A stretch of 63,154 nucleotides of DNA from contig LKHC01000145.1 in assembly GCA_001618605.1 (NCBI GenBank), positions 3,831 through 66,984 of the forward strand, written 5' to 3'. Source of the DNA: Candidatus Fermentibacter danicus (GTDB lineage: Bacteria > Fermentibacterota > Fermentibacteria > Fermentibacterales > Fermentibacteraceae). This document shows, in pieces, positions 21,554-26,490 of this stretch; position 1 is the first letter of the stretch; each line of letters begins with the position of its first letter. Both the position numbers and the translations under genes were made by a program. Below the pieces are notes generated by a model that was not told the DNA's origin, ran no database searches, and saw nothing but the letters and a program-made list of their open reading frames with translations.

Positions 21554-22465
21554 ATGAGGGTCGGAGTAATAGGAGTGGGCCATCTCGGCTACCATCATGC
21601 CAGGATACTGCGATCGCTCGCTTCGGAGGTGACGGTTTTCGACGCCAGGGAGGCCAGGACCGCGGAGGTCGCCTCGGAACTGGGCGTCGCGGCCGCTTCC
21701 TCCGCATCCGAGCTGCTTTCCAGGGTGGACGCCGTGGTGGTAGCTTCGGACACGGTCACCCACCACGACGTCGTTATGCAGGCTCTTGCCGCCGGGTGCC
21801 ACACGCTGGTCGAGAAGCCGATCGCCTCGGATTCCATCCAGGCCGCCCGTCTCGCATCGGAAGCCGAAAGGCTCGGTCGCGTGCTCGCCGTCGGCCACGT
21901 GGAGCGCTTCAACCCCGCCGTCGTCGCGGCCGGGGCGCTGATCGACTCGCCCATGTTCGTGGAGGCACACAGGCTCGCGCCCTTCAAGCACAGAGGGATC
22001 GACGTGTCGGTGGTCATGGATCTCATGATCCACGACATCGATCTGGTGCTCTCGTTCGTCAGATCGCCGGTCAGCGAGGTTCACGCCTCGGGCGTCGCCG
22101 TCCTCACCGACAAGGTCGACATCGCCAGCGCACGCGTGATGTTCGCCAACGGGGCCGTCGCCAACCTGACCGCCAGCCGCATCTCACGGGAACCGATGAG
22201 GAAGCTGCGCTTCTTCCAGCAGAGGGGCTACGTGTCGATAGATTTCGCCGGAAGAACCGTGGAGGCGTTGAAGGTGGACGGCGAATCCATTCGCCCTGTT
22301 CCGGTCGTCGTCACCGATGCCGATCCCCTGACCTGCGAGCTGCAGGATTTCCTGTCGGCCTGCGGGGGAGGGGGGCGACCGCTCGTCGGAGCCGCGGAGG
22401 GGGTCCGCGCCATAAGGGCCGCCGAACTCATAACCTCCAGGATGACGACCGCCGGATCGGCCTGA
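21554..22465 (+). CDS. Gfo/Idh/MocA-family oxidoreductase, possible UDP-GlcNAc 3-dehydrogenase
   Basis: 303 residues. NAD-binding GVGHLGYHHARIL at the N-terminus, the EKPIA motif (~93), VGHVERFNPAV (~114) and a catalytic-type MIHDIDLVLSF (~157). It overlaps lpxB by one base (TGATG) and lies in the lipid A operon. Relatives next to lpxA/lpxB include GnnA, which oxidises UDP-GlcNAc at C3 so that GnnB can make a 3-amino sugar for amide-linked lipid A. No GnnB-type aminotransferase is in the window, so that role is only an inference from context and general resemblance. Confidence 0.82.
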   Translation: MRVGVIGVGHLGYHHARILRSLASEVTVFDAREARTAEVASELGVAAASSASELLSRVDAVVVASDTVTHHDVVMQALAAGCHTLVEKPIASDSIQAARLASEAERLGRVLAVGHVERFNPAVVAAGALIDSPMFVEAHRLAPFKHRGIDVSVVMDLMIHDIDLVLSFVRSPVSEVHASGVAVLTDKVDIASARVMFANGAVANLTASRISREPMRKLRFFQQRGYVSIDFAGRTVEALKVDGESIRPVPVVVTDADPLTCELQDFLSACGGGGRPLVGAAEGVRAIRAAELITSRMTTAGSA

Positions 22466-23562
22466 TGCTCCTTTTCGTCTCTGCGGGCGAGCCATCGGGC
22501 GATCTCAGGGCGGCCGAGCTCTGCAGGGAGCTGTCCGCCAGGTCTCCCGGCATCGGTTTCTTCGGGCTGGGCGGGGATGACATGGAAGCCTCGGGTGTGG
22601 ACCTCTCGGCTCATCTCGAGGAATTCTCGGTGATGGGATTCTCCTCCGTGCTGAAATCGCTAGGCAGGATACTCTCACTCGAGAAGCGGCTCAGGAGGGA
22701 GTGCCTCGAACGCAGGCCGGATGCGGTGCTGCTCGTGGACTATCCCGGCTTCAATCTCAGAATGGCGCGCTGGGCGTCCCGCAGGGGATTCCCCGTAGTC
22801 TACCACATCTCCCCCCAGTTCTGGGCCTGGGGCGGCTGGCGGGCGCGAGGCATGGCCAGGCATGTCGATCTCGTCACGACGCTGTTCGAGTTCGAGGCCG
22901 GCTTCCATGCCGCTCTGGAGGTCGATGCCGTCTGGTGCGGACACCCTCTGGTCGAGTCGATCCCCCGTCCCTCGCCCGGCGGCGGGGATATCGCACTCCT
23001 GCCGGGCAGCCGGCCGGACGAGGTCGAGAGGCTCATGGAGCCGATGCTGGGGTGCGTGGAACTCCTCAGGCGCGCCGGAGACCGGCGGGAGGCTGTGGTG
23101 GCGGTTTCGAGAACCGTACCCGGGGCGCTCTACTCGAAGGCCTCCGCCCTGGGCTGCAGGCTCGTGGAGGGCACGTCGGCGGCGCTTTCGAGCGCCAGGG
23201 CGGCTCTGGTCTGCTCGGGCACGGCCACGCTCGAAGCCTCCCTGCACGGAGTACCGTTCGTGCTGATGTACAGGACATCCCCATTGAACTACGGTATAGC
23301 CAGGCTGCTCGTTCGCGGCGTGGACAGGATCTGTCTCGCCAGCATCGCATCCGGCAGGACCGTCGCCCCGGAGCTCATCCAGGGTGATGCCACCGCGGAA
23401 AAGGCGTTCGATGCGGTGCTTCCGCTTCTGGGCGACACACGCGAGCGGCGGGATGCATTGGAGGCCGCAGGCGCCGTACGCGATGCGCTGGGGCCTCCCG
23501 GAGCGGCCGGGAGGGCGGCGGAAGCCATCCTCAGGAAGCTGCAGGAGATGAACGTTGTCTGA
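22465..23562 (+). CDS. lpxB: lipid-A-disaccharide synthase
   Basis: 365 residues from ATG 22465, which overlaps the preceding stop. GT19 enzyme that joins UDP-diacylglucosamine to lipid X. Signatures: SAGEPSGDLRAAELC at the start, GLGGDDMEASG (~36), MGFSSVLKS, DYPGFNLRMA (~92), YHISPQFWAWGGWR (~113) and the C-terminal CSGTATLEASLHGVPFVLMYR (~252). Membrane-associated at the cytosolic face. Overlaps the downstream fusion gene by 8 bases. Confidence 0.97.
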   Translation: MLLFVSAGEPSGDLRAAELCRELSARSPGIGFFGLGGDDMEASGVDLSAHLEEFSVMGFSSVLKSLGRILSLEKRLRRECLERRPDAVLLVDYPGFNLRMARWASRRGFPVVYHISPQFWAWGGWRARGMARHVDLVTTLFEFEAGFHAALEVDAVWCGHPLVESIPRPSPGGGDIALLPGSRPDEVERLMEPMLGCVELLRRAGDRREAVVAVSRTVPGALYSKASALGCRLVEGTSAALSSARAALVCSGTATLEASLHGVPFVLMYRTSPLNYGIARLLVRGVDRICLASIASGRTVAPELIQGDATAEKAFDAVLPLLGDTRERRDALEAAGAVRDALGPPGAAGRAAEAILRKLQEMNVV

Positions 23563-25399
23563 CCTGGTTTCGAAGGATCGCGGTTTCGCCGGCCTGATCC
23601 TGCTCAGGCTCCTCATGGCGAGCTGGAGGGTGGACTACAGGAGGCCTCCGGGCGGGCGGACGGGCAGGCCCAGGGGCAGGCCGGTGCTCTACTGTCTCTG
23701 GCATGCGCGGCAGCTTCCCCTGATGCTCAGCCACAGGCGCGAAGGCATCACGACCCTGATAAGCCTGCACAGGGACGGCGACTATGTAGCGAAGGTCGCC
23801 AAGCTCCTTGGCTTCTCCGTGGTACGCGGTTCGAGCACCAGAGGTGGAGCAGCGGCTCTCAAGCGCATGGCGTCCGTCCTCAGGTCCGGTACGGATTGCG
23901 CGATAACCCCCGACGGTCCACGCGGGCCCGCCTTCAAGGCGAAACCCGGGCTGGTCCTGATATCCAGGCTGGGGCGAAGGCCTGCGGTTCCCATCGCAGC
24001 CTCCGGCTGCCCCGCCCTGGTATTCGGCTCCTGGGACTCCTTCCGCCTGCCGCTTCCCTTCGCACGCATGACGATTGTCGAGGGCAGGCCCATCCCTCCA
24101 TCTCCTCCCCGGATGACCCCGGAACAGGCCGCACTCCATGTCGAACGCGAGATGGCAAGGGTCACGGGGATGGCGGATTTCCTAGCCTGCACTCAGGGCA
24201 GACTGTTCGAGAGGGTCGCAGGCGCGGCCGGCAGGATGCTGGGCTTCGCCGCACAGGCGGCGCTGATTGGAAGACCCGGGAACGAGAGGCTCGAAAGGCG
24301 CGGAATCGTCCCGTCGAGAAGCGACAGACCGGTCGTGCTGCACGGATCGTCGGCGGGGGAGGTCAACGGCATTCTCCCGCTCGCCGGGCACCTCGCCTCC
24401 CGCGGCCTTCCCGTCCATCTCACATGCTTCACCCCGGCGGGCAGGGAGGCTGTTTCGAGATCGGGCCTCCCGGGGTCGTTCCTCCCCCTCGACTCGCCCG
24501 TGTTCGTGGAGAGATTCCTGGAATCGACGGCCCCCCGGGCGCTCGTGATAGCGGAGACGGAGATATGGCCCAACCTCCTCATGGGCGCCCTTCTCAGATC
24601 GGTGCCCTGCATCGCGGTGAACGCCAGGCTCTCGGAATCCAGCCTGAGGAACTACCGGCTGCTCGCCGGCCGTCGGATCGGCAGGCTTTTGTCGTGCTTC
24701 TGCGCGATCCAGTGCCGGACTCCTGGAGATGCTGAGAGGTTCGAGTCCCTCGGCGTCGATCCTTCCGTGATCGAAGTCACGGGCGACACCAAGGCCCTGC
24801 GCGATCCCGGTGATCCCCCCGCCGGATGGTCGTCGAGGTTTTCGGGCTGCGGCCCGGTTATTGTCGCAGGATCGACGAGGCCCGGCGAGGAGAGGGCCGT
24901 AGCCCTCGCTTCACGGAAGGCCGGTCTCTTCCCGGTGATAGCGCCGAGGCATCTCGAGAGGCTCGGAGAAGTGGCCGACCTGCTCCGCTCCGAGGGTTTA
25001 CGCACGAAGCTCTGGTCCGAGGGCGGACCCGCCTCCGGCGGTGACTGCATCCTGTTGGACGAGAGAGGGATACTCGCCCGTCTCTACGGTTGTGCGGATG
25101 TTGCGTTCGTGGGCGGCACCATCGCCCCCTTCGGAGGGCACAACGTCATGGAGCCGCTCCTCAGAGGCGTCCCGGTCGTCGTCGGACCCAGTCACGGGAG
25201 TTTCGAGGCGCTCGTCCAGGAAGGCGTAAGGATCGGGGCGGTGCGGGTAGCCGACGAGGACGGTCTAGCGGACGCATTCCACGCAATGGCCTCGTGCGGG
25301 CTCGATCGCTCGATCATAAGAAGTCTCGGAGCCTCCGGCGGCAGAGAGGCGCTCGACAGGTTCGTCGCGGCTCTGGCCCTCGCGGGGATCGTGATCTGA
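23555..25399 (+). CDS. waaA: DUF374 acyltransferase fused to Kdo transferase (WaaA/KdtA)
   Basis: 614 residues, two enzymes in one chain. Residues ~1-215 are a DUF374/LPLAT-like acyltransferase: YCLWHARQLPLML (~46), SLHRDGDYVAKVAKLLGF, VRGSSTRGG and ITPDGPRGPAFKAKPG (~118). Residues ~225-614 are a GT30 Kdo transferase: HGSSAGEVNGILP (~265; the Glu is the expected catalytic base), AETEIWPNL (~329), GSTRPGEE (~433) and FVGGTIAPFGGHNVMEPL (~517). Free-standing WaaA is ~400-430 residues. It adds Kdo to lipid IVA; the fused half may acylate the same lipid. Start TTG 23555 with AGGAG 8 bases upstream. Followed by lpxK. Confidence 0.9.
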   Translation: MSDLVSKDRGFAGLILLRLLMASWRVDYRRPPGGRTGRPRGRPVLYCLWHARQLPLMLSHRREGITTLISLHRDGDYVAKVAKLLGFSVVRGSSTRGGAAALKRMASVLRSGTDCAITPDGPRGPAFKAKPGLVLISRLGRRPAVPIAASGCPALVFGSWDSFRLPLPFARMTIVEGRPIPPSPPRMTPEQAALHVEREMARVTGMADFLACTQGRLFERVAGAAGRMLGFAAQAALIGRPGNERLERRGIVPSRSDRPVVLHGSSAGEVNGILPLAGHLASRGLPVHLTCFTPAGREAVSRSGLPGSFLPLDSPVFVERFLESTAPRALVIAETEIWPNLLMGALLRSVPCIAVNARLSESSLRNYRLLAGRRIGRLLSCFCAIQCRTPGDAERFESLGVDPSVIEVTGDTKALRDPGDPPAGWSSRFSGCGPVIVAGSTRPGEERAVALASRKAGLFPVIAPRHLERLGEVADLLRSEGLRTKLWSEGGPASGGDCILLDERGILARLYGCADVAFVGGTIAPFGGHNVMEPLLRGVPVVVGPSHGSFEALVQEGVRIGAVRVADEDGLADAFHAMASCGLDRSIIRSLGASGGREALDRFVAALALAGIVI

Positions 25400-25401
25400 A
25401 C

Positions 25402-26490
25402 ATGAAAAGACCCGATCTGGTCTTCAGGAGCATCGCAGAGCGGCGCGGGGGGTGGCGTTTCGCCGGGATGGCCCTCAGCCCCGCCGGGGCGGTCTTCGGG
25501 CTCGCCGCAAACCTCAGGAGGAGGGCGTATTCGCTGGGGCTCGGCCGGAAGCTGCGCGCCTGCGTTCCCGTGGTGAGCGTGGGGAACATCGAAGTGGGCG
25601 GCATAGGCAAGACCCCGGTCACGGTATGGCTGGCCAGGAGGCTGGTCAGCGCCGGGTTCGAGATCGCGGTGGCGGCGAGGGATCTCAACCGGCGGTCGGG
25701 TCCGCCTCTGAACGCATCCCTAGGGGCCTGGTCTTCAGATTCCCCTCCCTCCGACGAAGTCCTGATGCTGGCGAAACAGCTTCCCGGCTGCAGCGTGTTC
25801 GCCGGGCCCTCGAAGGCCCAGGCGGCCGTCAGGGCCGCGGCGGAAGTCTCGCCCGACCTGGTCCTGGTGGACGACGGGTTCCAGCATCTCACGCTGCACC
25901 GGGACATGGACATAGTCGTGCTGGACTTCGAACATCCGCTTGGAACCGGAGGCGTCATCCCCGCCGGCACTCTGAGGGAGTTCCCCTCGGCGCTGTCCGC
26001 CGCCGACTGCTTCTGGGTGAACCGGGTGCCGGCCGGACGCTCTCCGGAATGGCTCACGAGGACTCTCTCGCTGTTCTCCACCAGGGCGTCCGTCGTGAAC
26101 AGCCGTCCGGTGCCGGTCGCGCTCGAGATGCCCGGAGGCGGCAGCGTCGATCCGAAGGGTCTCAGGGTGGTGGCTTTCTGCGGGATAGGCCAACCCTCCT
26201 CCTTCCGCACGACACTGGCGGAGGCGGGATGCGAGACCGTGCATTTCCAGGACTTCCCCGATCACCACGTCTTCACCGTGGCGGAGCTGGTAGCCCTGGA
26301 GGAGAAGAGGAAGGCCCTGAAGGCGGACCTGCTGGTGACGACCGAGAAGGATGCGGTCAAGCTGGGCGAACCGGGAATCAGGCTTAACATCTGCGCACTC
26401 AGGATCGAACTGGACGTTTGGGGCGGATCGGACAGATTGCTGGAAGACATCGCCGGACTGGTCCGGGAAGGCGGGAAGCGTGAACCGTAG
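25402..26490 (+). CDS. lpxK: tetraacyldisaccharide 4'-kinase
   Basis: 362 residues. Phosphorylates the 4' position of the lipid A disaccharide to give lipid IVA. Shows the N-terminal membrane-associating segment, the special P-loop VGNIEVGGIGKTPVTVWL (~58-75), DDGFQHLTLHRDMDIVVLD (~157) and PAGTLREFPSAL (~187), plus DHHVFTVAEL and TTEKDAVKL near the C-terminus. Begins 2 bases after the Kdo-transferase fusion and overlaps nadB by 11 bases. Confidence 0.96.
   Translation: MKRPDLVFRSIAERRGGWRFAGMALSPAGAVFGLAANLRRRAYSLGLGRKLRACVPVVSVGNIEVGGIGKTPVTVWLARRLVSAGFEIAVAARDLNRRSGPPLNASLGAWSSDSPPSDEVLMLAKQLPGCSVFAGPSKAQAAVRAAAEVSPDLVLVDDGFQHLTLHRDMDIVVLDFEHPLGTGGVIPAGTLREFPSALSAADCFWVNRVPAGRSPEWLTRTLSLFSTRASVVNSRPVPVALEMPGGGSVDPKGLRVVAFCGIGQPSSFRTTLAEAGCETVHFQDFPDHHVFTVAELVALEEKRKALKADLLVTTEKDAVKLGEPGIRLNICALRIELDVWGGSDRLLEDIAGLVREGGKREP

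Follow-up and report, generated by a model that had tools for sequence, protein, structure and literature searches.

A single gene of Candidatus Fermentibacter danicus encodes an LpxJ-type (DUF374) acyltransferase joined in frame to the Kdo transferase WaaA, and this fusion is retained throughout the phylum. Based on its domains, catalytic residues, predicted folds and genomic position, we consider it probable that the product is one bifunctional LpxJ-WaaA enzyme, which would act at the inner membrane with lipid IVA as its substrate. The gene also provides a phylum-wide natural link of DUF374/LpxJ to the assembly of lipid A, at a great distance from the proteobacteria in which LpxJ was characterised.

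The fusion gene and its locus

The window analysed comprises 63,154 nucleotides of contig LKHC01000145.1. The features of the locus, all on the + strand and numbered within the window, are:

21554..22465, +, Gfo/Idh/MocA oxidoreductase (Pfam PF01408) before lpxB; its stop and the start of lpxB share one base
22465..23562, +, lpxB, 365 aa (Pfam PF02684; frame checked), with an 8-nt overlap with the fusion gene
23543..23547, +, AGGAG, likely ribosome-binding site by sequence reading, 7 nt before the TTG and within the end of lpxB
23555..25399, +, lpxJ-waaA fusion gene, 614 aa, TTG start (open frame, Pfam, order-wide recurrence)
23555..24199, +, LpxJ-type (DUF374) acyltransferase half, residues 1-215 (Pfam, alignment, AlphaFold model)
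24191..24262, +, joining helix, residues 213-236 (model, hydropathy, starts of separate alphaproteobacterial WaaA)
24200..25396, +, WaaA half (Kdo transferase, GT-B), residues 216-614 (Pfam, PDB 2xci, residue map, Foldseek)
25402..26490, +, lpxK, 362 aa (Pfam PF02606; frame checked), after a 2-nt gap behind the fusion stop

Translation of the window gave a stop-free frame of 614 residues over 23555-25399. The initial annotation had described one chain of this length with a DUF374 half and a full WaaA half, and both the open frame and the Pfam matches confirmed it; the motifs WHARQ, ITPDGPRGP, SSAGEVN and AETEIWPN that it had pointed out are all present in the protein. The location between lpxB and lpxK with overlapping or near-touching ends was also as described there, since the TTG at 23555 lies upstream of the lpxB stop and lpxK begins almost immediately behind the fusion. 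The genome is about 93% complete, and a search of it for a further waaA or DUF374 gene, which would have made the fusion redundant, found none beside the fusion itself. LpxC is encoded in the same genome, and the organism is therefore equipped for lipid A synthesis.

The N-terminal half belongs to the LpxJ family

Both domains of the fusion score well above the Pfam cut-offs. The DUF374 match (PF04028) covers residues 60-126 with an E value of 8.3e-27 and 93 bits, compared with a cut-off of 26.8. DUF374 corresponds to LpxJ, a family that replaces LpxM without being orthologous to it and attaches the 3' secondary acyl chain (PMC6148475; reviewed in PMC6286764), and LpxJ activity has been demonstrated in Helicobacter, Campylobacter, Wolinella and Rickettsia (PMC6148475). 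In LpxJ from R. typhi mutation of W60, H61, D86, D132, W172 or D173 abolished the activity, whereas H84 was dispensable (PMC6148475). Matched by motif, these six essential residues correspond to W49, H50, D74, D120, W160 and D161 of the fusion, and an alignment of 45 homologues revealed no variation at W49, H50, D74 and D120 and at least 90% conservation of W160-D161. The HX4D/E motif of LpxL, LpxM and PlsC is absent: H50 is followed by ARQLP, with no D or E at position +5.

The AlphaFold model of this half has a pLDDT of 92.5. A Foldseek search with the model returned PlsC (5kym, E 4e-6) and PatA (5oce, E 2e-4) as the nearest structures, with modest TM values of 0.4-0.57; R. typhi LpxJ was modelled on PlsC and PatA as well (PMC6148475). 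A search of the PDB with the sequence of this half gave no meaningful match. The DUF374 domain, the six essential residues and the lack of HX4D/E are thus shared with LpxJ. The characterised members of that family are stand-alone proteins, which is usual but not defining, whereas the predicted acyltransferase forms here the N-terminal half of a fusion with WaaA; this is a difference of architecture and not of the family of the domain.

The C-terminal half is a divergent WaaA

Residues 247-414 matched Glycos_transf_N (PF04413) with an E value of 8e-41, and WaaA from Aquifex (2xci) was related to this half both in sequence (E 1e-28) and, by Foldseek, in fold (E 5e-21). The residues listed as important for Aquifex WaaA, G30, E31, E98, K162, R212, N273 and E276 (PMC6286764), correspond to G268, E269, E334, K413, R465, N530 and E533, and all seven are invariant in 17 of 17 aligned fusions. 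Within the putative 1-phosphate-binding trio of the Aquifex enzyme S28 is kept, S54 is replaced by T293 and R56 by A295. The best score against the NCBIfam WaaA equivalog models, which are strict subfamily models, was 205.9 bits (NF004388) and stayed below the cut-off of 438; we therefore regard the half as a divergent WaaA. It has the GT-B fold, the catalytic and CMP-binding residues and the place before lpxK in common with WaaA/KdtA (GT30) and differs in having an acyltransferase domain ahead of the N-terminal membrane helix.

LpxL-type genes and the acceptor of the LpxJ half

The initial annotation had seen no LpxL or LpxM. This holds for the window but not for the genome, which contains three genes of the LpxL superfamily (PF03279) on other contigs. 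The HX4E motif is intact in two of them (HYGNWE in L001 and HYGAWE in L002). The third protein (L003:8-1297, - strand, contig C41) reads HFGDER, without D or E at the expected place, and a similar, weakly scoring third copy occurs in most genomes of the order. PF03279 genes were detected in 41 of the 42 genomes of the order Fermentibacterales, and these together with the genome itself rule out that the lineage lacks LpxL.

The proposal that DUF374 is the late lipid A acyltransferase of this lineage has to be modified accordingly. The idea of DUF374 as a late acyltransferase is sound but already known, and membership in the LpxJ family and the conserved essential residues support it well. With LpxL-type genes in the genome and the order, however, the half is not the sole late acyltransferase and does not replace LpxL. 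LpxL and LpxM resemble the LpxJ half in the late secondary acylation that is predicted for it, but they form another family with the HX4D/E motif and are encoded by separate genes in this genome. By analogy to its kin the DUF374 half would perform the LpxM/LpxJ step, and the likeliest division of labour is that LpxL-type enzymes provide at least one chain, with the 3' chain left to the LpxJ half. In a family as broad as DUF374 the position of acylation cannot be read from the sequence, and we infer the 3' assignment for the fusion.

The LpxL-superfamily genes could supply the late chains alone, and the LpxJ half could therefore be an active acyltransferase for an acceptor other than lipid A, such as a lysophospholipid or a different lipid, with the fusion merely placing it next to WaaA. 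The general LPLAT fold, with PlsC as its nearest neighbour, would fit this alternative as well. We nevertheless judge it unlikely: the DUF374 proteins that have been assayed to date acylate lipid A (PMC6148475), lpxJ adjoins waaA and lpxK in many phyla among the matches listed, and the fusion lacks the PlsC-type HX4D/E just as LpxJ does.

The joining helix and the integrity of the protein

In the model a helix of residues 189-211 closes the LpxJ half and the helix of residues 213-236 opens the WaaA half. The latter is the counterpart of the hydrophobic helix region at the N-terminus of free-standing WaaA. Since the donors, acyl-ACP and CMP-Kdo, are found in the cytosol, both halves should face this compartment, with the helix lying in the membrane surface or turning back. 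This bears on the topology of WaaA, in that the hydrophobic helix between the two halves is not expected to make a single pass through the membrane.

The same region is where two separate proteins could arise, by an internal start or by proteolysis, so that no working fusion would exist. Free-standing waaA genes of many phyla start at the join point and the window contains an ATG within the joining helix (GRMLG). This methionine is not conserved across the order, a ground on which an internal translation start was rejected, and the predicted structure is continuous and of high confidence (pTM 0.91); we therefore regard two separate products as very improbable.

Slightly more improbable still is a catalytically dead DUF374 half that serves as membrane anchor or regulator of WaaA. 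The existence of canonical LpxL-type genes in the genome would permit it, but every fusion keeps the essential LpxJ residues with little or no variation. Purifying selection acts on both halves: a comparison of two congeners gave dN/dS values of 0.075 (LpxJ half), 0.18 (linker) and 0.127 (WaaA half), so that selection is stronger on the DUF374 half than on WaaA. An inactive half was rejected on these two grounds, conservation and dN/dS. The initial annotation had held a canonical lpxL elsewhere together with an inactive DUF374 half against its own proposal; only the first part of this combination was found.

The search for the fusion in related genomes that the annotation had suggested showed the in-frame join in 41 of the 42 genomes of the order, with identities of 42-70%; in the remaining genome (G031) a contig end cuts the gene, and the match covers only the part behind the join. 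In one genome (G004) the fusion is split over two contigs with the break before the join, a second (G025) has a frame break within the WaaA half and a third (G041) a single in-frame TGA. Separately named records of Candidatus Fermentibacteraceae and Candidatus Aegiribacteria (L036-L038) contain the fusion as well. Where flanks were available in the relatives, lpxB precedes and lpxK follows, usually with nadB thereafter. A frameshift or assembly error might be suspected as lpxJ and waaA lie side by side in many phyla, with a shared frame and only an intervening stop in some alphaproteobacteria, but the recurrence of the identical join across the order and in the named Fermentibacterota records rules out such an artefact and leaves it hardly conceivable.

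Distribution and origins of the fusion

A scan of 84,980 genomes located lpxJ directly 5' of waaA in many phyla (at least 80 loci), which among the matches listed include Nitrospirota, Elusimicrobiota, Methylomirabilota, Zixibacteria and Eisenbacteria besides alphaproteobacteria. Among these matches the fusion itself was found in acetic acid bacteria, namely Asaia, Gluconobacter, two species of Acetobacter and Gluconacetobacter (L046, L050, L066, L068 and L071, at about 5.7-7.8 kb each), and in one Elusimicrobia metagenome record (L039:5896-7851), whereas the Elusimicrobia relatives listed keep the genes separate. In at least eight records, mostly from alphaproteobacteria (L042, L043, L045, L047, L049, L072, L084 and L087), separate lpxJ and waaA genes share a reading frame, the only interruption being a stop and a short start region; such pairs are one or a few mutations short of a fusion.

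Quick trees of either half, in which the Elusimicrobia branch is a single metagenome record, place the fusions in three positions, each beside unfused relatives, and the starred branches force three changes. An AU test rejected one clade of all fusions for the WaaA half (p 7e-8) and for the LpxJ half (p 4e-6), and with it a single origin. A clade of Fermentibacterota and acetic acid bacteria was rejected by the LpxJ half (p 0.006) and borderline for the WaaA half (p 0.06). The trees indicate that the fusions in Fermentibacterota, in acetic acid bacteria and in the Elusimicrobia record would have separate origins.

Proposed function of the bifunctional enzyme

In the bifunctional LpxJ-WaaA enzyme that we favour, the N-terminal half would transfer an acyl chain from acyl-ACP most likely to lipid IVA or Kdo-lipid IVA, at the hydroxyl of the 3'-linked primary acyl chain, with His50, paired with Asp120, as putative base. 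The C-terminal half would use CMP-Kdo to attach Kdo at the 6' hydroxyl, with Glu269 as putative base. The active sites would be linked via the hydrophobic helix with which separate WaaA proteins begin. Owing to this linkage through a membrane helix both sites should share one membrane-bound substrate directly behind the LpxK step, and from the fusion we expect LpxJ and WaaA to work in close physical proximity; a gain from such tethering is conceivable. The known LpxJ enzymes act independently of Kdo, some of them exclusively before LpxL (PMC6286764), while WaaA accepts substrates with 3-6 acyl chains (PMC6286764). For this reason the two halves could act in either order on the lipid IVA made by LpxK.

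The coupling of Kdo transfer and acylation that the initial annotation had considered is plausible in view of the fusion, the gene adjacency elsewhere and the apparent repeated origins. Repeated fusion of neighbours suggests an advantage in staying together, although channelling explains it no better than equal dosage or co-localisation would. Tentatively, and with more doubt than confidence, we propose that the single enzyme may couple 3' secondary acylation with Kdo transfer, that the fusion may have been selected at least three times, and that a real hand-over from LpxJ to WaaA may take place, perhaps in loose complexes where the two are unfused. If true, one protein would make Kdo-bearing, extra-acylated lipid A. 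Since Acetobacter and Gluconobacter share the architecture, the proposal is testable in harmless food bacteria that can be cultured; the lipid A of Acetobacter pasteurianus is hexa-acylated according to work cited in PMC8036547.

Precedent and neighbouring gene

No published description of an LpxJ-WaaA fusion was found in the literature searched. As far as this literature shows, the component enzymes are of known kinds and the combined architecture is apparently undescribed; automatic database annotation may list it. A comparable case is the fusion of LpxC with FabZ in Bacteroidetes, Chlorobi and Verrucomicrobia (PMC3087551). There, too, linked steps of lipid A and fatty acid synthesis are encoded by genes that are neighbours elsewhere and fused in some lineages, but the enzymes are different and belong to an earlier branch point of the pathway.

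The oxidoreductase of the Gfo/Idh/MocA type is also located directly 5' of lpxB in the relatives within the order and in several other phyla, and a role in the modification of lipid A sugars is possible.
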